DNA of 47,185 bases from Candidatus Stahliibacteriota bacterium (GCA_016208615.1 JACQXS010000045.1:5719-52903), one strand, 5' to 3'. Counted from the first letter of the stretch, positions 880 to 39,374 are shown. Notes: generated from the letters alone by a model not told the origin. Numbers and translations are program-made.

Positions 880-3699
880 TTATCTGAATACTATGAGTTT
901 TATCAATCTATTTTCTGGCTCTATAAGTTCACCCGAAAGAGGTTTAACCTCAACTTGCAATCTTAGGAAGTAAATTCCATTGACTACTAACTTGCCTTGT
1001 TCATCAGTCGCATCCCATACTACTTTGTGTTCACCCGGAGCAATTTTTTGGTCTTTAAGCAGTTGTTTTACTTTTGTACCTGCTAAATTATAGACTGATA
1101 GATTAACATGACAAGTTGAGGTCGCACCTCTTTTGTTCTCAATCTTAAATTTCACTTCGGTTCTCTTATAGAATGGATTAGGCAGACACTCAAAGGATGA
1201 GATTAAAAAGTGCTTATATTCCGCACCTCGCAGTCCACTATCCGCAGTAAGAGAAAAGAACTGCATCACTGAATCCAATACCTGTATCCTAATAGAGTCA
1301 GGAATTGAAGCTAATGTAATCCTTGAACTCCAAATCTTATACTTAATAGCTTGCGGGTCAGGGGACCCGCGGCTACCCTCGGTTTGGTAGCAAAAGCTGA
1401 CGACATTCCTATTGGCGTCAGTAAATATAGGGATTGAATTATCGGGTATAAACCAATAGTTAGAATTAGTAACTTCTTCTAATGGGGTAAATGAAATATT
1501 CATTCCATAGATTGGCGGAATAATATCTTGGTTTATCTGCTTGCCAGCAGATAGGTTAGATAGCCACCTATTTTGTCCCTCTATGTAGATATTAGGATTA
1601 TTGTAGCGAAGCGGAAATCCCGATGTGTCGAGATTAGTTAAGAATGTAGAGTCATCATCCAAGATAAATATAGACCCAAAATTATTCATCCATTGAGTGC
1701 AAGAGGCGATGTCCATTGTTACTGCGCCACGGTAGCCAAGTCTTGTAAGTTCTTGATGTATAGCTGTAGCACTTGCCGGTCCTACCCCGCCAAGTCGGGA
1801 CTTCGCTTCAACAATAATGAAATCACCCTTCGCCACATATAGAGAGATAGAAAAAGTATCATTTTCCAGGTTCTCATCCTGCATTGAAAATACTTCATAC
1901 TTTACTCTATACTCTACGCCCATTTGGGGGGTAGTCCATTCAGGGAATTCAATTATCCTTTCCTCCATCGGCTTAATGGTATCTATAACAACTGATGACT
2001 CGTAGATTTCTACATCGCAAGACTCTATTTCACAATTGACTTTACACTTTGTTTCATTTAATATGCCCAAATTTACTACCTTACACATAGGTAAAAACCC
2101 ACTATCTGGTGGTATCCATTTTAGAGATGCGACCTCAGATGGAGTAGATGTGGAAATTTTAATATCCACTCCCGGTATTCCTTGCAAAGATAGAGATGGG
2201 TCACCCCATATTTTAAATCCCAATGTATCATACGGGAAATAAGTTTCATACCAGAAGCGAGCTTCTCTAAATGCTTCACCTACTGTGGAACATCCCGAAG
2301 AAAGCGGGGTAGCATCCTTCAATAAGCATTTTAAGAATAGGTAGTTAAAACTCTGATTCCCGCCATCTGACAAGTCATCCCAACCAACTACATACTGTGA
2401 ATTGCTACTCGGAGCTATCACAGATACAGCACTTTGTTTCAAAAACTCTTGTCCCTCAAAAGGTGCAAATATAATAGATAGTCCCGCATTTAGTAGTGAA
2501 TATTTACTTACTTTAATTTCTTCCTCTGAGGTCGCACCTCCTTCTGGCACATTATCTCCATCATCTACAATCCATTTTTTACCAAGTGTCAAGAAATTGA
2601 TAATAGAGTAATCGCCTGATATTATTTTTCCACTTTCTACCTCATCCAACTTCCAATTTGAGGTTGCACCTCTTGAGATTGCACCTCTGTCAGGAATAAT
2701 GGGTTTAAGTTTTTTTATTAGTGTGCTCTTATCTTCGGCTGGGATACCGGAATAGTTTTCATTCTCATAATTGGCTATGCCCTTCACAAATAGGATTGAT
2801 TTTTGACTCTTCCCTAATTCAAATTCTATCGTCCTCTCTAATATGGAGGCAATCAGACGAGGCTCTGTATATGGGATTCTACCTATTATCGGTCCCTCAA
2901 TTTCTATGGGATTACCAATTATCAGCACATATTTTGGTCTGCCCAACTCGTTAATCCTGCTGTGAGGTAAGATTTTGACTTTATATCCTATACTCTCCTT
3001 CCATGAGATAAAATCCCGAAGAATAGGAACATTATCAGCTATTATTACATAATTATAGGAAGTATCCAAAGTATTCTGTTTCGGCTTATACCATCGTCTG
3101 CATTCACTAAAATTAATTACATTAGATGAGAACAAAGCATCCAAAGTAGTATCTACTTGAGGTCGCACCTCTTCGACTTGTTTGTTAGGAATTGTATATT
3201 CAATAGTTATTGTTATCTCATTTGAGTACCACCATTTTTCTTCTCTGGGGTTATATGCCACTGGAAATATAGCTATTTTTGCCATTTCATAGCCAAATAA
3301 ATCATAAATCCCTAAACACTTACCCGCAATAGATGGATACATTTCGGTATGTGAAGTTGTGTCAGTTTGAGGTCGCACCTCTCGTTCTATTAGTGCACCC
3401 TCAGTAACTTTATTTGGTGCAAAGAGAGAGGTGGGACATTGAATTGAGTATTTATCAGGTAGAGGTTGCAATTTCCTTGTTACTTTACAGGTTGTAATTT
3501 CACTTTTAGGTGGTACGATGAGCCACACTGATTTGGCAGGTATCAATGGAAGACCGGGCTTACTTACTGAACCATATCCTTCTATATTTAGTCTATTATT
3601 TTTTACTTCTACCTCAGGAATAGTGATTTTATACACCTCACCCATTATCTGATATGGAGCAAGTAATACAGAAATTAGAAATAATAGACTACCTTTCAT
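880..3699 (-). CDS. Secreted peptidase C25 (gingipain)-like protein with C-terminal FlgD-like/T9SS sorting domain; catalytic residues appear absent
   Basis: 939 aa, N-terminal signal peptide, C25-like layout, C-terminal LPNPFYKRTEVKFKI...LSVYNLAGTKVKQL...GEHKVVWDATDEQGKLVVNGIYFLRL. Confidence 0.65.
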   Translation of the reverse strand: MKGSLLFLISVLLAPYQIMGEVYKITIPEVEVKNNRLNIEGYGSVSKPGLPLIPAKSVWLIVPPKSEITTCKVTRKLQPLPDKYSIQCPTSLFAPNKVTEGALIEREVRPQTDTTSHTEMYPSIAGKCLGIYDLFGYEMAKIAIFPVAYNPREEKWWYSNEITITIEYTIPNKQVEEVRPQVDTTLDALFSSNVINFSECRRWYKPKQNTLDTSYNYVIIADNVPILRDFISWKESIGYKVKILPHSRINELGRPKYVLIIGNPIEIEGPIIGRIPYTEPRLIASILERTIEFELGKSQKSILFVKGIANYENENYSGIPAEDKSTLIKKLKPIIPDRGAISRGATSNWKLDEVESGKIISGDYSIINFLTLGKKWIVDDGDNVPEGGATSEEEIKVSKYSLLNAGLSIIFAPFEGQEFLKQSAVSVIAPSSNSQYVVGWDDLSDGGNQSFNYLFLKCLLKDATPLSSGCSTVGEAFREARFWYETYFPYDTLGFKIWGDPSLSLQGIPGVDIKISTSTPSEVASLKWIPPDSGFLPMCKVVNLGILNETKCKVNCEIESCDVEIYESSVVIDTIKPMEERIIEFPEWTTPQMGVEYRVKYEVFSMQDENLENDTFSISLYVAKGDFIIVEAKSRLGGVGPASATAIHQELTRLGYRGAVTMDIASCTQWMNNFGSIFILDDDSTFLTNLDTSGFPLRYNNPNIYIEGQNRWLSNLSAGKQINQDIIPPIYGMNISFTPLEEVTNSNYWFIPDNSIPIFTDANRNVVSFCYQTEGSRGSPDPQAIKYKIWSSRITLASIPDSIRIQVLDSVMQFFSLTADSGLRGAEYKHFLISSFECLPNPFYKRTEVKFKIENKRGATSTCHVNLSVYNLAGTKVKQLLKDQKIAPGEHKVVWDATDEQGKLVVNGIYFLRLQVEVKPLSGELIEPENRLIKLIVFR
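1118..1130. repeat. GAGGTCGCACCTC palindromic element inside CDS
   Basis: Exact 13-mer; encodes RGATS on the minus strand. Confidence 0.8.
2528..2687. repeat. Cluster of GAGGTCGCACCTC-type elements (2528-2540, 2660-2672, 2675-2687) inside CDS
   Basis: gaggtcgcacctc, gaggttgcacctc, gagattgcacctc; the last two in tandem. Confidence 0.8.
3159..3381. repeat. Two GAGGTCGCACCTC elements (3159-3171, 3369-3381) inside CDS
   Basis: Both exact; encode EVRPQ(V/T)DTT on the minus strand, a different frame from the RGATS copies. Confidence 0.8.
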
Positions 3700-24301: not shown

Positions 24302-24331
24302 ATCTATATGGACATCCTTGACTCGTTCATT

Positions 24332-24416
24332 GGCATCAATGGTGAGAGTATTGGCATCAATGGTGAGAGTATTGGCATCAATGGTGAGAGTATTGGCACC
24401 AATAGTGAGAGTATTG
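24332..24416. repeat. 21-bp tandem repeat, about 4 units, immediately upstream of the HEAT-repeat gene
   Basis: attggcatcaatggtgagagt x3 plus attggcaccaatagtgagagt. Confidence 0.9.
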
Positions 24417-24447
24417 CTGTCCGTAACTCATTCATTGCTGTCCCTAC

Positions 24448-25474: not shown

Positions 25475-25598
25475 TTACCCTCCTTTTTTGTAGGGCATCC
25501 AAAATGCCCATAGCTTTCTACTCATCTATAACTAATCGTAATATTTGTAAATTCCGTCTTTTTATCAGAGAATATGTAGATATTCTGTAGAATATCGG

Positions 25599-25872
25599 CA
25601 TATCCAAGCGAGTGTACCACACACCCAAGTGAGCGTACCACACACCCAAGTGAGTGTACCACACACCCAAGTGAGTGTACCACATACCCAAGTGAGTGTA
25701 CCACACACCCAAGTGAGTGTACCACACACCCAAGTGAGTGTACCACACACCCAAGTGAGTGTACCACACACCCAAGTGAGTGTACCACATATCCAAAGTG
25801 TACCACATATCCAAGTGAGTGTACCACATATCCAAGTGAGTGTACCACATATCCAAGTGAGTGTACCACACG
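25599..25872. repeat. 21-bp minisatellite, about 13 units
   Basis: Consensus CACAYAYCCAAGTGAGTGTAC tandemly repeated, with one shortened unit (cacatatccaaagtgtac). Confidence 0.95.
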
Positions 25873-25939
25873 CTCCACAGCGTATACCGTATATTCCACT
25901 TACTTTTCAATTCTTTTATCAAAAATTCAACCATTAGTT

Positions 25940-27409: not shown

Positions 27410-28468
27410 TCATTTTTCTATTTGTATAATCTTCCGTATATCTATATTTACGGGGCAGTTTATGATACATCTACCGCAACCGCAGCACCCGACCTCGCCT
27501 ATATTTTCGGGCAAATACTTAAACTTATGCAGAATACGGTTACTAATTCTTTCTTTTAATGTAGGTCGCGGATTAGTGCCAGCCGCCTCCTGTGTAAATT
27601 GCTTAAACATACAACTATCCCATATCCTGATACGCTTGCACTTGTTGCCTTTACCCTCATCCTGAATATCAAAGCAGTGGCAAGTGGGACAAAAATAAGT
27701 GCATACACCACAGCCCAAACATTTATAAGCCAATTCTTCCCAGAGAGCAGTATCCACAAATACTTCTTTTAGTTCAACGGGTTTAACCTCTGCTTTATTT
27801 TTAATCTCTACTACTTTATTCAAATCTTCTTTTGTAGCTTTTTGTGTGGCTTTAATTACAGCTACCCCTTTTTCACTACACGGCTCAATAATAAAAGCAT
27901 CCCCTATATCCACAAGAAAAACATCAGCCCCTTCTTTATTAAATGGACCACCACCCACCCAATGACAAAAACAAGTAGAGCGTGGATTATTACAAGCAAA
28001 AGAAAATATAATCGCCTTGTCATACTTTTCCTGCCAATAAATATCTACATATTTACCACCCACAAACACTTTATTCAATAGAGTAAAACTCTTAGCATCA
28101 CAGGGTCTTGTGCCAAAAACTATTATCGGTTTGCGGTTTGCGGTTTGTGGTGCTCGGTTTTCGGTTATCTTGACCCATTCTCCCGACCTATTCTGCGTCA
28201 GGACGGGTGCGTCGTCAGGACAGGTCAGTACGAGGGATTCAGGGATTATAGTTTCGGATTGAGGGAAGAAAAGCTCTTTGGGCGATTTATCTGTATTGTA
28301 AAAGTCAAGCTTCAAATTGTCATTTCGAACCTGTTTCGGAATCTCATTCCCAATTTCCATAAAAGATATTATCCCATCCGCCTCAACAGGTGCAAATACA
28401 CTATATTTTTGGCTCAACTCTTCCAAAAATCGCTTAATATTACTTTTCTCTATCTTAAATATATCCAT
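27410..28468 (-). CDS. 4Fe-4S oxidoreductase subunit (sulfhydrogenase beta/AsrA/FloxB-like)
   Basis: 352 aa; IIVFGTRPCDAKSFTLLNKVF, CLGCGVCTYFCPTCHCFDIQDE, CCGCGRCIINCPVNIDIRKII. Confidence 0.82.
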   Translation of the reverse strand: MDIFKIEKSNIKRFLEELSQKYSVFAPVEADGIISFMEIGNEIPKQVRNDNLKLDFYNTDKSPKELFFPQSETIIPESLVLTCPDDAPVLTQNRSGEWVKITENRAPQTANRKPIIVFGTRPCDAKSFTLLNKVFVGGKYVDIYWQEKYDKAIIFSFACNNPRSTCFCHWVGGGPFNKEGADVFLVDIGDAFIIEPCSEKGVAVIKATQKATKEDLNKVVEIKNKAEVKPVELKEVFVDTALWEELAYKCLGCGVCTYFCPTCHCFDIQDEGKGNKCKRIRIWDSCMFKQFTQEAAGTNPRPTLKERISNRILHKFKYLPENIGEVGCCGCGRCIINCPVNIDIRKIIQIEK

Positions 28469-28477
28469 AAATCACTA

Positions 28478-28515
28478 CCTTACATAATAAACTCTTGTTT
28501 ATCATCTTCTTTATA
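28478..28515. repeat. 38-bp perfect direct repeat flanking HicBA, copy 1
   Basis: CCTTACATAATAAACTCTTGTTTATCATCTTCTTTATA, identical to 28985-29022. Confidence 0.97.
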
Positions 28516-28744
28516 AGCTTCCCAAATACTTGTTGTAATCATCCACAGCAATCTCTATTTCTCGTAAAATTTCCCTTATCAAAGGACGAGCCAAAACCCT
28601 TCCTTTATGATGTGGCACAGTAGTAGTTCTTCCATCAAAATGTCTATAAAATACATGACTTCCTCTCTGACGAGATTTCTCAAAACCTAATAGAAATAAC
28701 AACTTTTCCATCTTTTTAGCATCAATTATTTGAAGCTTACTCAA
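28511..28744 (-). CDS. hicA: HicA-family mRNA interferase toxin
   Basis: 77 aa; LLFLLGFEKSRQRGSHVFYRHFDGRTTTVPHHKGRVLARPLIREILREIEI. Confidence 0.9.
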   Translation of the reverse strand: MSKLQIIDAKKMEKLLFLLGFEKSRQRGSHVFYRHFDGRTTTVPHHKGRVLARPLIREILREIEIAVDDYNKYLGSL

Positions 28745-28977
28745 GTCGCTACCTCAAGAGGTTCGACCTCAATCTGTTGAATTCCTACAAATTCAGGTAG
28801 GTATTTTTTACTCTCTGGATTCATTTCCTCCAAGCATAATTCTACCACTTCTTTAAGATTTTTTTGAAGCTCATCAAGAGTCTCTGCTTGGGTATGGGCA
28901 CCGGGAATCCCGGGAACAACTGCCACATATAATTTAGTCTCCGGGTCTCTTTCAATATATCCAGTTATCCTATACAT
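28741..28977 (-). CDS. hicB: HicB-family antitoxin
   Basis: 78 aa; ERDPETKLYVAVVPGIPGAHTQAETLDELQKNLKEVVELCLEE; overlaps hicA by 4 nt. Confidence 0.9.
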   Translation of the reverse strand: MYRITGYIERDPETKLYVAVVPGIPGAHTQAETLDELQKNLKEVVELCLEEMNPESKKYLPEFVGIQQIEVEPLEVAT

Positions 28978-28984
28978 TTACCCT

Positions 28985-29022
28985 CCTTACATAATAAACT
29001 CTTGTTTATCATCTTCTTTATA
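28985..29022. repeat. 38-bp perfect direct repeat flanking HicBA, copy 2 (3' end of the ferredoxin-like gene)
   Basis: Same 38 bp; encodes YKEDDKQEFIM* of the ferredoxin-like CDS. Confidence 0.97.
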
Positions 29023-30015
29023 GGTAGCCAGTGGTGGTGTAGCCGTTATATCTAATCCCGCTATATAGCCAAATCTATCTTTTATCTCCTTTTCAATTCT
29101 AATCCCTAAAGGTGCTAAATTTACACCCATAGGACAGGCCCTGGAACAAGCACCACACCCAACACATCTGCCCGCTATATGAAGTAACCTTATGGTATGA
29201 AATATGATTGTATCCGAAATATGTGTACTTTTACTAAACCATTGTGGATTAGTTTGGTCAACAAAGCACTCCTCACAATAACACATAGGACAAGCATTTC
29301 TACAAGCATAACACCTAATACATTTACTTATTTCGCGCTCAAAATACTCCCACCTTTCATTTGAGTTCAGCTTTTCAAATTTATCTACAAGCCCAAACTC
29401 ATTTATTTCACTTGCCTTGCTCTGTCTTCTGTTTTCTGTCTTCTGTTCTCTGTCTTCAGGGCGAGGCTCAAATTGATGTTGATTATGTAAAATTGTTTTC
29501 TGCGATTCCTTTACGCAACACTAAACTTTGGGATATTTGCAAAAAAGACACCCGTCATCAAGTATTTCTTGCGTACTTAAAGAGATATGCAAATCCTTAC
29601 CTTCCAACAAAATTTTATCACCTGCAATCCTATAATCTAAAATCTCTCTTTCTCCTATTTTCTCTCTTACCTTTTTAAAATCCACCACTCCTTTGCAAGG
29701 TACACCTATGATGACTACATTTTCTCTCTTTATTTGTCCCTCAACTATGTATTGCACTATTGACCGACCATCGCATCCTTTAGCTACTACTCCTATCGGT
29801 TTGCAGTTATCGGTTATCGGTTTTCGGTGTTTGACCAAATAAGTAGCCAAATTATTACCACAAGTAAGGTCAAAAATTAAATTCCCGCACTCTTTATCAT
29901 TAGTTATAACAATAGGAGTTGAGCATAAAGGTAAAGTTCCTTTTGCATACCCGATAATAAACTCTACCTTCTTTTCTTGCAACAACTTTTGGCTTATATT
30001 TTGCAGTTCTTTCAT
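28987..30015 (-). pseudogene. F420-hydrogenase beta/HdrA-associated 4Fe-4S ferredoxin-like protein interrupted by an in-frame TAG at 29521-29523
   Basis: ORFs 30015-29521 and 29286-28987 share one frame. Between them the frame reads CCVKESQKTILHNQHQFEPRPEDREQKTENRRQSKASEINEFGLVDKFEKLNSNERWEYFEREISKCIRCYACRNACP, followed by MCYCEECFVDQTNPQWFSKSTH...CVGCGACSRACPMGVNL. Confidence 0.8.
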
Positions 30016-30473
30016 TATTTTACAAGTCTTGAGGTTGCACCTCTTTGGGATGGACCAAGCTTTTTAATATCTTCCGTTACTTTTTTTGCTACTTCGGCAA
30101 ATTTTTCTCCTTCCCCGGCGGATACCCACGAGAATTGTACTCTGCCGGGCTCAATACCTACAAATTCTAACATCGTTTTTAATAAAGCAAACTTTCTGCG
30201 TGCATAGTAATTGCCTGTTATATAATGGCAATCCCCAGGATGACAACCCGAAATAAGCACCCCGTCAAACCCATTTTGCAAACACTTCAAAACATAAATC
30301 GGATTTATTCTACCAGAACAAGGAACCCTAATCACCCGAATACTAGGTGGGTATTGAATTCTTGAAACTCCTGCCAGGTCTGCACCGGCATAGGAACACC
30401 AAGTACATAAAAAGGCTATTATTTTAGGCTGCCAATCTCGGTTATCGGTTATCGGTATTCGGTTTTCGCTCAT
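30015..30473 (-). CDS. MvhD/FlpD-like hydrogenase delta subunit (FloxD-like)
   Basis: 152 aa; IIAFLCTWCSYAGADLAGVSRIQYPPSIRVIRVPCSGRINPIYVLKCLQNGFDGVLISGCHPGDCHYITGNYYARRK. Confidence 0.92.
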   Translation of the reverse strand: MSENRIPITDNRDWQPKIIAFLCTWCSYAGADLAGVSRIQYPPSIRVIRVPCSGRINPIYVLKCLQNGFDGVLISGCHPGDCHYITGNYYARRKFALLKTMLEFVGIEPGRVQFSWVSAGEGEKFAEVAKKVTEDIKKLGPSQRGATSRLVK

Positions 30474-30826
30474 TTTCTTAATGCTTTAATTAAATTTCTA
30501 ATCATTCTTGCTATATGGTCAATCTTTTCCAAAAGTTCATCTCTGGTTTCAGTAGGAATATATTTCAATTCATTAGAAATAATTAGTTGTGTTTCTATCT
30601 CTGCGGATGACCCTAATGCTATATATAGAAATTGAATATACTCATTAGTATGTCCTCTTGTTTTACCTTCAGCTATATTTGATGGAATAGACACAACACA
30701 TCTCCTCATTTGGCTCGCAAGCCCGTATCGTTCCTCGTCAGGAAAGTTTCTGGTAATAAAGTACATATCCTTAACCAATTCTATACTTTTCTGCCAAACT
30801 TCCAAATCTCTATAACTTTTTATCAT
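30470..30826 (-). CDS. Four-helix-bundle (S23/IVP-like) protein; probable start at 30826 (ORF track start 30871)
   Basis: MIKSYRDLEVWQKSIELVKDMYFITRNFPDEERYGLASQMRRCVVSIPSNIAEGKTRGHTNEYIQFLYIALGSSAEIETQL is characteristic. Confidence 0.92.
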   Translation of the reverse strand: MIKSYRDLEVWQKSIELVKDMYFITRNFPDEERYGLASQMRRCVVSIPSNIAEGKTRGHTNEYIQFLYIALGSSAEIETQLIISNELKYIPTETRDELLEKIDHIARMIRNLIKALRK

Positions 30827-30854
30827 TTTTCTTGTACCCGCAAACCGAACCCCG

Positions 30855-33800
30855 CTACCCGCTACCCGCACCTATTGCTTCAAATATCTGCTCATCTGTA
30901 AATCCTTTTAAGTCTATCGCACTACATCTACAAGATGCAGCACACACCCCACACCCTTTACATAGAGCTTCATTTATTTCAGCTACTCGCTCGACAACTC
31001 CCGGTAATATCTCTTTTTCTTTAATTTCTATTGCCGAATAGGCACATACTTCTACACATACGCCACACGCCGTACATCTAATAGGATTAACCCAACATAT
31101 TGTACCTTCGGCTTCCATTGTCTGTCTACTTAAAACTGTTAATGCCCTGCCAGCCGCACCTTTGGCTTGGATTATAGACTCTTCCATATCTTTGGGACCG
31201 TGGGCTAATCCACAAATAAATACCCCATCAGTAGCAAAATCTACAGGTCTTAATTTAGCATGTGCTTCCAAGAAAAATCCATCCGCATTTAGTGGTACTT
31301 TAAGTAATTTAGCTAACTCTTTATTACGGGTAGGCGCATCTATCGCGCAAGATAAAACTACTAAATCCGCCTCTATTATCACTTTGCTTTCCAATAATGG
31401 GTCTATAGTTGTTATTCTTAATTTACTATTAATATCTTCTTTGTCAAGAATTTCAACTTGTGGCTTATATTCTGGTTCATATCTTATGAATACAACTCCA
31501 TTCTCTCGTGCCTTAGTATAATATTTCTCCATCAACCCGTATGTCCTTACATCTCTGTATAATACATAAACATCCGCATTAGGGTAGATTCTTTTAACTT
31601 CAATTGCATTTTTAACCGCCTCACTACAACATACCCTACTGCAATAAAGTCTATCCTTTTCTCGTGACCCGACACATTGAATCATAACTACGGTTTTCGG
31701 TGCTTTGGTGTCGGTGTTCGGTTTGCGGTGTTCGGTTTGCGGTGTTCGGTTTGCAATAACCGATAACCGCTTCTCAAGTTCAAGTTGGGTAATTATTCTC
31801 GCATCTTCTCCATACAAATACTCTTTTGACTTGTATTCTTCTGCTCCTGTAGCCACCACTATAATCCCATGCTCTATTTCGGTGTTCGCCGCTAACCCAT
31901 TACCATTGACTGATAACTGGGTTTTGAAATTGCCAATATAGCCAGAGATATTATCTATTTTAGCATTAGTATATGTAGTGATAAGAGGATTAGATTTTAC
32001 TTTGTCAATAGTCTCTTTTAATAATTTTTGCACCTCCTTTCCATCCAATGTATAATATATGTTTTTTAAGTTACCCCCTAATTCACTATCTTTTTCTATA
32101 ATTACTACTTCATATCCTGCTTCTGCTATAGCTAATGCAGACACCATTCCCGACAGCCCACCCCCTATTACTATTGCTTTGGGATTTACCTGAATTAATA
32201 ATCTATCTAACGGATTAAGATTTCTTGCTTTCGCTACCGCCATACTTACTAAATCTTTTGCCTTTTGAGTAGCCAGTTCCGGCTCATTCATATGTGCCCA
32301 ACTGCACTGGTCCCTGATATTTGACATTTCAAAAAGATATTGGTTAAGTCCTGCTTCCCTTAATGTTTCACGAAACAATGGCTCATGGGTTCTCGGAGTA
32401 CAAGCAGCAACTATTACTCGGTTAAGATTATGTTCTTTAACTTTGTCCTTCATTATGTTTAAAGAATCTTGCGAACACGCATATAATGTAGTCTGAGCAT
32501 AGTCAACATTGGGTAGCTTTTGGGCAACCTCTGCTACTTTCTCAACATCAACAACTCCGGCAATATTTATACCGCAGTGACATACAAATACACCAATCCT
32601 TGGTCTATCTCCTATTACATTTAGTTCCGGTGGATACACTTTTTTAGAAACCTTTGCTTGTCTTTCAAGGGCTAAAAACTTAGCACACTCAGCCACAGTA
32701 CCGGATGCCGCCATCACTGATTCAGGAATATCCTTTGGTCCACTCATCCCACCAATTACAAATATACCCTCTTTTGTAGTAGCCAAAGGAGTGAACTGCC
32801 CTGTCCTGCAAAACCCATATTCATCCAATTTAATATCTGATTTATCTGACATTTTATCTATTCCCTTGCGTGGCTCCAACCCAACAGAAAGAACAACCAT
32901 ATCAAAAGACTCTTCTTTCAATTTACCATCTTCTTGCGTATAGCGGAGACTTAAACTACCTCCATTTGTTTCATTGATTTCCGCTACCTTTGACCGCACA
33001 AACCTTACCCCGGATTGAGCTTTTGCACGCTCATAATATTTATCAAAATCCTTCCCATATGCCCTTATATCCATAAAAAATATAGACGGCTCAATATTTT
33101 TTATATGCTCCTTCGCTATAATTGCTTCTTTTATAGCATACATACAGCAGACAGAACTGCAATACTCGTTCTTAACATTCACATCCCTTGACCCAACACA
33201 TTGAATAAAGGCAATCTTTTGTGGTGGCTTGCCATCTGAAAAACGAACTATATGTCCTTTTTGAGGTCCTGAGGCAGATAACAGACGCTCAAATTCAAGA
33301 GAAGTAATGACATTCTTAAATTTCTTATACCCATATTCTCCATAAGATATAGGATTATATGGGTCAATCCCTGTTGCCAAAACAATTGCCCCACAAGAGA
33401 GAGTAATTGTTTTCGCTTTATCTTCAAAATTTATAGCTCCTGCTGTGCATTCCTTTTCACATAACCTGCAAGCCCCCTTAGTAAGATAAAGGCAGTGTGC
33501 TGCATCTATCACATAATTTGAAGGTATGCTTTGTAAAAAATATCTGTATATTGCTTTACGCTGCCTTAGTCCCATATCAAACTCGTCCATTATTTTTGTC
33601 GGGCACTTCTGTTCACAAATCCCACAACCTACACACTTTTGAGGGTCAACATATTTTGGGAACTCATTTATTTGGCAGCTAAAATTGCCCACCTCACCCG
33701 ATATAGATGCAAGAGAAGAATAAGTATGTAGCGTAATCCCGGGATGCCTGGCACATTCACTCATTTTGGGTGCCAGAATACAAAGAGAACAATCATTAGT

Positions 33801-37576: not shown

Positions 37577-39374
37577 TAAAGAGATATTGACTTCAAGACT
37601 TATAGACCGCTCCATAAGGCCACTTTTTCCTGATGGCTGGCAATCCCCAGTACAAGTAATTGCAAGTATATTATCGTCTGACATTGAAAATGATGGCGAT
37701 ATTTTAGGATTATTAGGGGCCTCGGTTGCATTGAGAATGTCCAGTATTCCATTCCAATATCCAATAGGAGCAGTCAGAATTGGGTTCACAAATAATCAAT
37801 TTATCCTAAATCCTACAACTTCTGAACTTGAAGACTCCTCATTAAATTTAGTGGTAGTTGGAAGTAAAGCAGGTATCACAATGATAGAGGCAAATTGTAA
37901 AGAAGTGAAAGAAGAAACTATTATTGATGCGATTAAGTTTGCACTTCCAGATATTCATAAGTTGATAGAATTACAGGAAGATATAGAAGTTAAAACTCAA
38001 ACCTTAAACCTCAAACCTCAAAACTCAGAATTAAAATCTATGATAGTAAGTAAATTTGGACCCGATATAGAGTTAGCACTTAAAATTACTGACCGTCTTG
38101 CAAGGGGTAAAAAATTACAGGAAATACAAGGTTCTTTAATTGAGAATATTGGTGAACAATACGAGGTGCCAAATATAATAAGTGAATTTGAATCTCTTGA
38201 GCGTGATATAGTGAGGCGAATGGTTACGGAGCAAAAATTACGAGTAGATGGTCGCGGGATAGAGGAATTGAGACCCATAACTTGCGAAATCTCTGTATTG
38301 CCACGAGTGCATGGGGCGGCTATATTTACGAAAGGTGAAACTCAATCATTATGCACAGTAACATTAGGCACAGTAGCTGATGAGCAAAAAATAGACCCCT
38401 TTACAGGTGAGACATATTATAAGAGTTTTTTAGTCCATTATAACTTTCCACCATTCTCAGTAGGCGAAGTAAGAGGACTTCGTTCACCTGGCAGGCGTGA
38501 GGTTGGGCATGGAACATTGGCAGAGAAATCGCTTGAACCTATAATTCCGGTGGCTGAAAGCTTTCCATATACTATACGACTTGTCTCTGATATACTTAGT
38601 TCTAATGGTAGCTCATCAATGGCAACAGTTTGTAGTGGCTCACTTGCTCTTATGGATGCGGGCATACCCATAAAATCTCATATTGCCGGAGTAGGGCTTG
38701 GACTTATAGATGATGTTGTACTTGTAGATGCAGTAGGAGAAGAAGACCATTTCGGGGATATGGATTTCAAGATAGCAGGCACAAAAGATGGGCTCACGGC
38801 TATTCAGTTGGATATTAAAACTAAAGGACTATCATTAGAATTAGTTGAAAAATCACTCCTATTAGGTAGGGAGGCAAGATTTAAAGTATTAGAGCATCTA
38901 AATGCAGCAATACCTGTTCCCAAGAAAGAGATAAGCGACTATGCTCCTAAACTTACTGTACTATTGATACCCAAAGAAAAGATAGGTCAAGTAATAGGGC
39001 CCGGTGGTAAGGTAATCAGGGAAATAATAGAAAAGACAGGTGCTAAAGTTGAAATATCTGATGATGGTAAAGTAACTATAAGTTCAGATTCGTGGTCAAC
39101 AACCGAAACAGCTAAAAAGATAGTTGAGGGAATAGTAGAAGAAGTACAGGTTGGCAAAACATACCTTGGTAAAGTAACGCGTATATTACCTTTTGGTGCA
39201 ATAGTAGAAATACTACCGGGTAAGGAGGGGTTACTACACATTTCACAACTCGCCAATTATAGGGTCCAAAATACAGAGGACGAAGTAAAATTAGGCGAAG
39301 AAGTGCCGGTTAAAGTATTGGCAGTAGAAGAAAATGGCAAGATACAACTTTCCCGCAAAGCAGTACTGCATTAA
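37518..39374 (+). pseudogene. pnp: Polynucleotide phosphorylase lacking its N-terminal portion
   Basis: Frame opens after a TAG at 37515 with [41 protein letters not shown] and runs to KH and S1 domains (IGPGGKVIREIIEKTGAKVEISDDG; GKVTRILPFGAIVEILPGKEGLLHISQLA). The track start at 37587 is an internal TTG codon. Confidence 0.9.

Follow-up and report, generated by a model that had tools for sequence, protein, structure and literature searches.

What are the short, related repeats that run through the genes of an Hdr/Flox-like cluster in Candidatus Stahliibacteriota bacterium, and how did they come to lie there? The cluster is carried on the stretch of 47,185 nt analyzed here (GCA_016208615.1 JACQXS010000045.1:5719-52903), termed the window. 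A preliminary description of the window took the repeats for a micro-repeat family that has invaded nearly every subunit of the cluster as tolerated surface-loop insertions. We found two of the arrays to be the inverted ends of a larger unit that encloses a gene of the S23/IVP four-helix-bundle family (PF05635) between hdrA and mvhD. Free-standing S23/IVP genes were found mostly between inverted arrays of this heptad type and, judged from the aligned loci, these arrays are the ends of a unit, because two S23 copies of this genome are homologous essentially from arm to arm and because filled and empty sites were found for both the hdrA-mvhD and polA-coaE junctions. Such bracketing around most of the sampled S23 genes suggests a kind of mobile element that has been overlooked.

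The repeat itself is real. The string CGGTTTGCGGTTATCGGT, with up to three mismatches, had nine matches in the window, all of them in the region named earlier, and none in 100 dinucleotide shuffles. This 18-mer is not the unit; a scan for self-similarity at a lag of 7 nt resolved it into a degenerate 7-mer, CGGT followed by three variable bases (CGGTNNN), and the 18-mer corresponds to 2.5 such units. The five sites described in floxB, in open reading frame (ORF) 29521, at the mvhD N-terminus, at the hdrA/four-helix junction and in hdrA could all be redrawn as heptad arrays. The scan placed the floxB array at 28118-28158, that of the mvhD start at 30434-30471 and that of the junction, with the variant unit CGGGTAG, at 30842-30872. 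A further proposed member in the RnfC gene (peptide PITDNE) reads CCCATAACAGATAATGAGCC, and falls outside the family because it has no ACCG core. Arrays were confirmed in several genes of the Hdr/Flox-like cluster; hdrC and floxA carry no array, and the family is genome-wide rather than specific to the cluster. The arrays on the two sides of the four-helix gene had been regarded as independent loop insertions, and are instead the inverted arms of one inserted cassette.

The stop codon of the S23 gene overlaps the start codon of mvhD as ATGA. The same hdrA-mvhD site was found in other states in related genomes. Relative G023 has the same layout, with an S23 gene 65% identical to that of the window, G002 has an ACCG array alone and no S23 gene, and G003 has neither array nor S23 gene, the hdrA stop codon overlapping the mvhD start codon directly (ATGA). 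We place the insertion point at this stop/start overlap, because the hdrA stop codon and the mvhD start region both fall inside the arms in the window. G023 comes from a different family within the phylum. Its Hdr/Flox cluster (locus L076) resembles that of the window (HdrA 74%) to the same degree as does the cluster of G003, a genome of the window's own family. The similarity suggests horizontal transfer of the Hdr/Flox cluster together with its S23 cassette.

A second junction gave a comparable picture. In the genome to which the window belongs (assembly 83% complete) an S23 cassette lies between polA and coaE. The polA-coaE gap without a cassette measures 31 nt in G001, 37 nt in G006, 38 nt in G018 and 13 nt in G010. 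In G002 it holds a palindrome of ~266 nt in which several heptad families are nested concentrically, without S23, and which folds at -75 kcal/mol compared to -42.3 kcal/mol (SD 4.8) for mononucleotide shuffles.

Ten S23 matches were found in the window's genome, all with repetitive inverted flanks by eye and with a flank sequence that differs from locus to locus. The inverted-repeat score of the flanks was 16-28 for nine of the ten, compared to a median of 11 and a 99th percentile of 18 for 319 control ORFs, the two top-scoring of which turned out to be S23 genes. The tenth is a partial gene match, and its arms lie outside the 200-nt flank. Between the copies on contigs C62 and C23 the alignment is good over the whole span from one array to the other, with one 7-bp indel, and is poor beyond the arrays. 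Among 60 relatives, 34 carry S23 genes, and the copy number per genome ranges from 0 to 16. Inverted flanks with z>4 were present at 17 of 25 S23 loci in relatives, compared to 2 of 27 HicA loci of the same genome set.

The bracketing extends beyond these relatives. The 80 GTDB loci that we sampled matched this S23 subgroup best and came from Atribacterota, Bacteroidota, Omnitrophota, Planctomycetota, Clostridia, Patescibacteria and others, cultured isolates included. Among the 73 testable loci, 68% had inverted flanks at the same threshold (z>4) compared to 4.3% of 139 neighbouring ORFs (Fisher p=6e-24). Inverted exceeded direct similarity between the two flanks by 61:12. Period-7 tracts were present at 60% of the S23 loci and 16% of the neighbouring ORFs; the excess was smaller for lag 8 (21% vs 3%), with little or none at lags 5, 6, 9, 10, and 11. 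Rfam searches of 18 S23 loci gave no ribosomal RNA (rRNA) match, and a location of the S23 genes within rRNA was rejected.

The arrays inside genes likewise differ among relatives: in the sequences compared, a given site may hold the array, lack it or hold another one. HdrA homologues of G003, G002, G011, and G034 lack the window's insert (31692-31769, with a core at 31711-31738 by the lag-7 scan), while in an hdrA paralog on contig C89 this loop is occupied by a related array. At the floxB site, G002 and G003 have heptads of a different family (SQLSTLNSQLS) and G023 also has other heptads, and the content of the ORF29521 site varies among relatives. The empty sites that the preliminary description had proposed to look for were therefore found, in four relatives for HdrA, with the floxB site refilled differently. 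Conservation of the peptides in distant homologues, which would have refuted the loop-insertion reading, was not seen, the inserts being missing or replaced in relatives. In an AlphaFold model of HdrA built with 13 homologues (mean predicted local distance difference test score, pLDDT, 76.7; predicted template modeling score, pTM, 0.81) the insert is placed between a helix (726-737) and a strand (757-764), and residues 740-751 have a pLDDT below 50. Solved HdrA chains such as 5odc_A are recognizable as relatives, and the three matched stretches do not cover the insert.

Because the unit has 7 bp, an array preserves the frame only where the net length it adds is divisible by three. As the preliminary description had claimed for its own sites, the arrays within genes of the Hdr/Flox cluster were all found to be read through in frame, and this includes the array at 29417-29457. 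Of 49 arrays genome-wide that lie in the interior of ORFs with 200 codons or more, 44 are read from the strand that gives the more hydrophilic peptide (p=8e-9), with a mean GRAVY (grand average of hydropathy) of -1.62 as read compared to +1.03 for the other strand; this orientation was also found in 10 of 10 arrays for which neither strand has a stop codon in any frame. We infer from this bias a selection for loop-compatible insertions. The reading of the arrays as tolerated surface-loop insertions is supported, because in-gene arrays keep the frame and most have the hydrophilic orientation; the empty sites of relatives and the modeled HdrA loop agree with it. The arrays are presumably tolerated in surface loops and change in length by slippage in 7-bp steps.

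Short, degenerate heptad arrays of several sequence families are numerous in the genome. The CGGTNNN pattern CGGTNNNCGGTNNNCGGT had 78 matches (51+27) in the assembly, compared to 1 (0+1) for the reversed-pattern control, and is patchy among relatives (G002, 24; G003, 8; G001, 0; G005, 29). A 413-kb sample, made up of the largest contigs and the window, contained 96 period-7 tracts compared to 2 in a Markov control, 23 of period 8, 7 of period 6 and 4 of period 5. Lags 4-6 and 8-13 were far below lag 7, and tandem 7-bp units thus exceed other periods as in heptameric short tandem repeats. The coexisting families include CTGTCCT, TTTGGGA, CGGTTAT, TTTGAAC, AAATGCA, and AGAAGTC, and 62 of the 96 tracts fall within ORFs of 100 or more codons, these ORFs being called mechanically so that a few may be spurious. 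A second head-to-head CGGT/ACCG array, resembling that of the hdrA loop, was found in frame within a 535-amino acid ORF on contig C53 (L111:19555-19621).

The link between these solo arrays and the S23 cassettes is suggestive, not established. The S23 arms of the window's genome are closer to its solo arrays than foreign S23 arms are (mean score 17.4 vs 12.8, p=0.0025). In 20-kb samples more period-7 tracts were found in S23-bearing genomes (rho 0.56, p=0.01), a correlation that is confounded by kinship and has G005 as an exception.

Altogether, we consider it probable that two linked things are present, tolerated heptad arrays that slip and S23 genes that are mobile, intervening sequence (IVS)-like hairpin cassettes with heptad-array ends. 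By analogy with the IVSs of 23S rRNA, each S23 cassette would be a hairpin element whose arms pair as a stem, with the ORF in the loop. It may persist in operons because landing at a gene junction lets the arms provide stop and start codons. Where head-to-head arrays enclose no ORF, as in the hdrA loop and the polA-coaE palindrome of G002, they would represent decayed units or units free of cargo. Array length would shift through 7-bp slippage, and a single 7-bp indel was seen between the C62 and C23 copies. A wider version, in which the S23 genes of many phyla are the cargo of an unrecognized class of mobile hairpins with ends of degenerate heptad arrays, and in which solo and nested heptad palindromes are its cargo-less forms and one source of the in-frame insertions of conserved enzymes, is considered possible.

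Several observations weigh against a mobile cassette with heptad-array ends. About one third of the sampled S23 loci fall below z>4. Few solo arrays have an inverted partner nearby (a score of at least 17 in 8/63 outside and 1/61 inside ORFs), and the idea that all arrays are palindrome arms was rejected on these counts. G005 is rich in arrays and S23 was not detected in it, leaving unsupported the idea that arrays require S23. The RNA fold of the whole cassette was only mildly better than that of shuffles (z about -1.5) and was set aside as evidence. By eye, no target-site duplication was seen at hdrA-mvhD or polA-coaE, where the compared genomes have diverged. No mobilizing enzyme was identified, and no systematic search for transposases was made; mobilization by a reverse transcriptase, as in diversity-generating retroelements, was rejected since the 83%-complete assembly gave no reverse transcriptase (PF00078) match.

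As an alternative we weighed ordinary heptanucleotide slippage, in which hairpin template switching (quasi-palindrome correction) would form the S23 arms locally and no unit would move. Heptamers are over-represented in many bacteria, and slippage related to the polymerase footprint has been proposed (PMC4692102); the locus-specific arm sequences and the one 7-bp indel between two copies would also fit. However, slippage does not account for the same heptad families at many unlinked sites, for two S23 copies at unrelated sites with arms and gene in common, or for the joint presence or absence of gene and arms at polA-coaE and hdrA-mvhD, and it leaves unexplained why S23 genes but not other small genes, e.g., hicA, have such flanks. 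We regard it as unlikely.

A regulatory role in the host, with the arms selected as terminator or processing-site hairpins and the S23 genes being ordinary, immobile operon members, has little probability. The arms are able to pair in RNA, and S23 genes are co-directional with both neighbours in 45 of 55 cases, but this is near the share found locally, where 53 of 65 pairs of neighbouring ORFs lie on one strand, and co-directionality was dropped as evidence. The arms are also long, degenerate and repetitive, unlike terminators, and different at every locus, and the genes vary in presence among relatives and in copy number. We find it very improbable that the arrays within genes have been selected as functional parts of the protein, such as flexible linkers or docking loops. 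The array in the same loop of the C89 hdrA paralog speaks for such a role, as do the arrays of differing sequence that several relatives hold at the floxB and linker sites. Other relatives, however, have no array at the same sites, the sequence changes family freely, and arrays occur in many unrelated genes throughout the genome.

The mobile S23 cassettes favored here share features with several known systems. Heptamer repeats (PMC4692102, PMC4679880), rRNA IVSs (PMC4990558, PMC11270868) and in-frame palindromic elements (PMC10969869) are already known separately. In the open-access literature, with subscription papers outside the scope, we found no report of free-standing S23 genes bracketed by inverted heptad arrays. 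The IVS of Coxiella has an S23p ORF in the loop of a stem formed by 28-bp terminal repeats, tandem heptamers in variable number adjoin the ORF, and RNase III cuts the IVS in vitro (PMC4990558). The cassettes resemble the IVSs of Coxiella, Leptospira and others in having an S23-family ORF in a unit with complementary ends, and that of Coxiella also in the adjoining heptamers (PMC4990558). They differ in lying between or near protein-coding genes instead of in rRNA, as the window copy at hdrA-mvhD does, in their many copies per genome, and in arms that are themselves degenerate heptad arrays. By analogy of working we would place them with the IVS kind, although their location is not that of an IVS.

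The dispersed tandem 7-bp units are shared with the heptameric repeats GGGAATC of Xanthomonas, those of Nostoc and Calothrix, and TAACTGA of Beggiatoaceae (PMC4692102, PMC4679880), which are mostly intergenic and near-exact, while the present ones form several degenerate families and lie largely inside ORFs. Rickettsia palindromic elements are likewise inserted in frame in unrelated protein genes, with an extra peptide that is apparently tolerated (PMC10969869). They are, however, conserved palindromes of ~150 bp, whereas the in-gene arrays are degenerate heptad runs of 20-80 bp, mostly non-palindromic and rarely with an inverted partner nearby. A small multicopy unit with terminal inverted repeats and filled and empty sites recalls miniature inverted-repeat transposable elements and other small transposable cassettes, but no terminal sequence is conserved between copies and no target-site duplication was seen. 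The Avd protein of diversity-generating retroelements is a four-helix protein related to PF05635 (PMC10053308), and the S23 protein of the window has a weak bAvd match; the retroelement's reverse transcriptase is the feature lacking in the assembly.

Features of the window (positions counted from its first nucleotide).
Feature	Position	Strand	Basis
S23/IVP four-helix-bundle gene (PF05635), between hdrA and mvhD	30470-30826	-	Pfam, E=5.6e-41
S23 cassette 5' arm, sense CGGGTAG units, GCGGGTAGCGGGTAGCGGGGTTCGGTTTGCGG; holds hdrA stop codon 30855-30857	30838-30872	-	lag scan, flank test
S23 cassette 3' arm, sense ACCGNNN units, CGAAAACCGAATACCGATAACCGATAACCG; supplies mvhD start region MSENRIPITDNRD	30434-30472	-	lag scan, flank test
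hdrA loop insert, residues 732-757	31692-31769	-	head-to-head CGGT/ACCG heptad array RLSVIANRTPQTEHRKPNTDTKAPKT
ORF29521 ACCGNNN array, KHRKPITDNCKP, residues 62-73	29797-29835	-	mismatch search and lag scan
floxB ACCGNNN array, ITENRAPQTANRKP, residues 101-114	28118-28168	-	mismatch search and lag scan
CTGTYYT heptad array, sense EDREQKTENRRQ, in frame in the ORF29521-ferredoxin linker	29417-29457	-	lag scan
AAACCTC-type heptad array, VKTQTLNLKPQNSELK, inside ORF 37587-39374	37984-38036	+	lag scan
Weak TACTNNN-like heptad array inside ORF 880-3699	1889-1917	-	lag scan
Single in-frame TAG separating ORF29521 from the ferredoxin domain	29521-29523	-	comparison with relatives

The last three arrays of the table were absent from the preliminary description, and each is of another heptad family. 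ORF29521 and the ferredoxin ORF (28987-29286) form one gene in four relatives, and are parted here by one in-frame TAG, possibly a real split, a readthrough site or a sequence error. The linker array was rejected as the cause of a frameshift, since it is in frame and the TAG alone parts the two halves.

Other insertions and repeats were observed in the window. In floxB, further lineage-specific insertions at 28170-28241 (PESLVLTCPDDAPVLTQNRSGEWV) and 28319-28348 (NEIPKQVRND) are absent in relatives. A HicA/HicB toxin-antitoxin pair (28511-28977) sits between the ferredoxin ORF and floxB, and the ferredoxin 3' end is duplicated around it as a perfect direct repeat of 38 nt (28478-28515 and 28985-29022). 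The ferredoxin and floxB genes abut in G003, G023, and G011, while G002 has an unrelated insertion of ~500 nt at the same junction (L075:3940-4434). The unrelated insertion in G002 and the HicA/HicB pair here therefore mark the ferredoxin-floxB junction as an insertion hot spot. Tandem repeats of 21 bp and CCAAGTGAGTGTACCACACAC type, open in several frames, lie upstream of hdrC (25557-25919), a short tandem array with the 21-bp unit ATTGGCATCAATGGTGAGAGT at 24308-24433, and tandem repeats of a 153-bp unit at 1-638, which may encode a repeat protein truncated at the window edge.

Free-standing S23/IVP genes are spread over many phyla, and no role has been assigned to them. Earlier work mentions single S23 genes within cas loci (PMC3936711), and S23 is among the phage-region genes beside guanylate kinase in Flavobacterium columnare (PMC5524665). 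If the genes are carried by IVS-like mobile cassettes that end in heptad arrays, such placements may need no functional explanation, and inferences from gene neighbourhood that involve S23 genes should be discounted. It would then become possible to test whether the rRNA IVSs originated as one of the landing sites of a general element. With their bias toward the hydrophilic orientation, the in-gene arrays may also be used as insertion scans, made by nature, in enzymes like HdrA.

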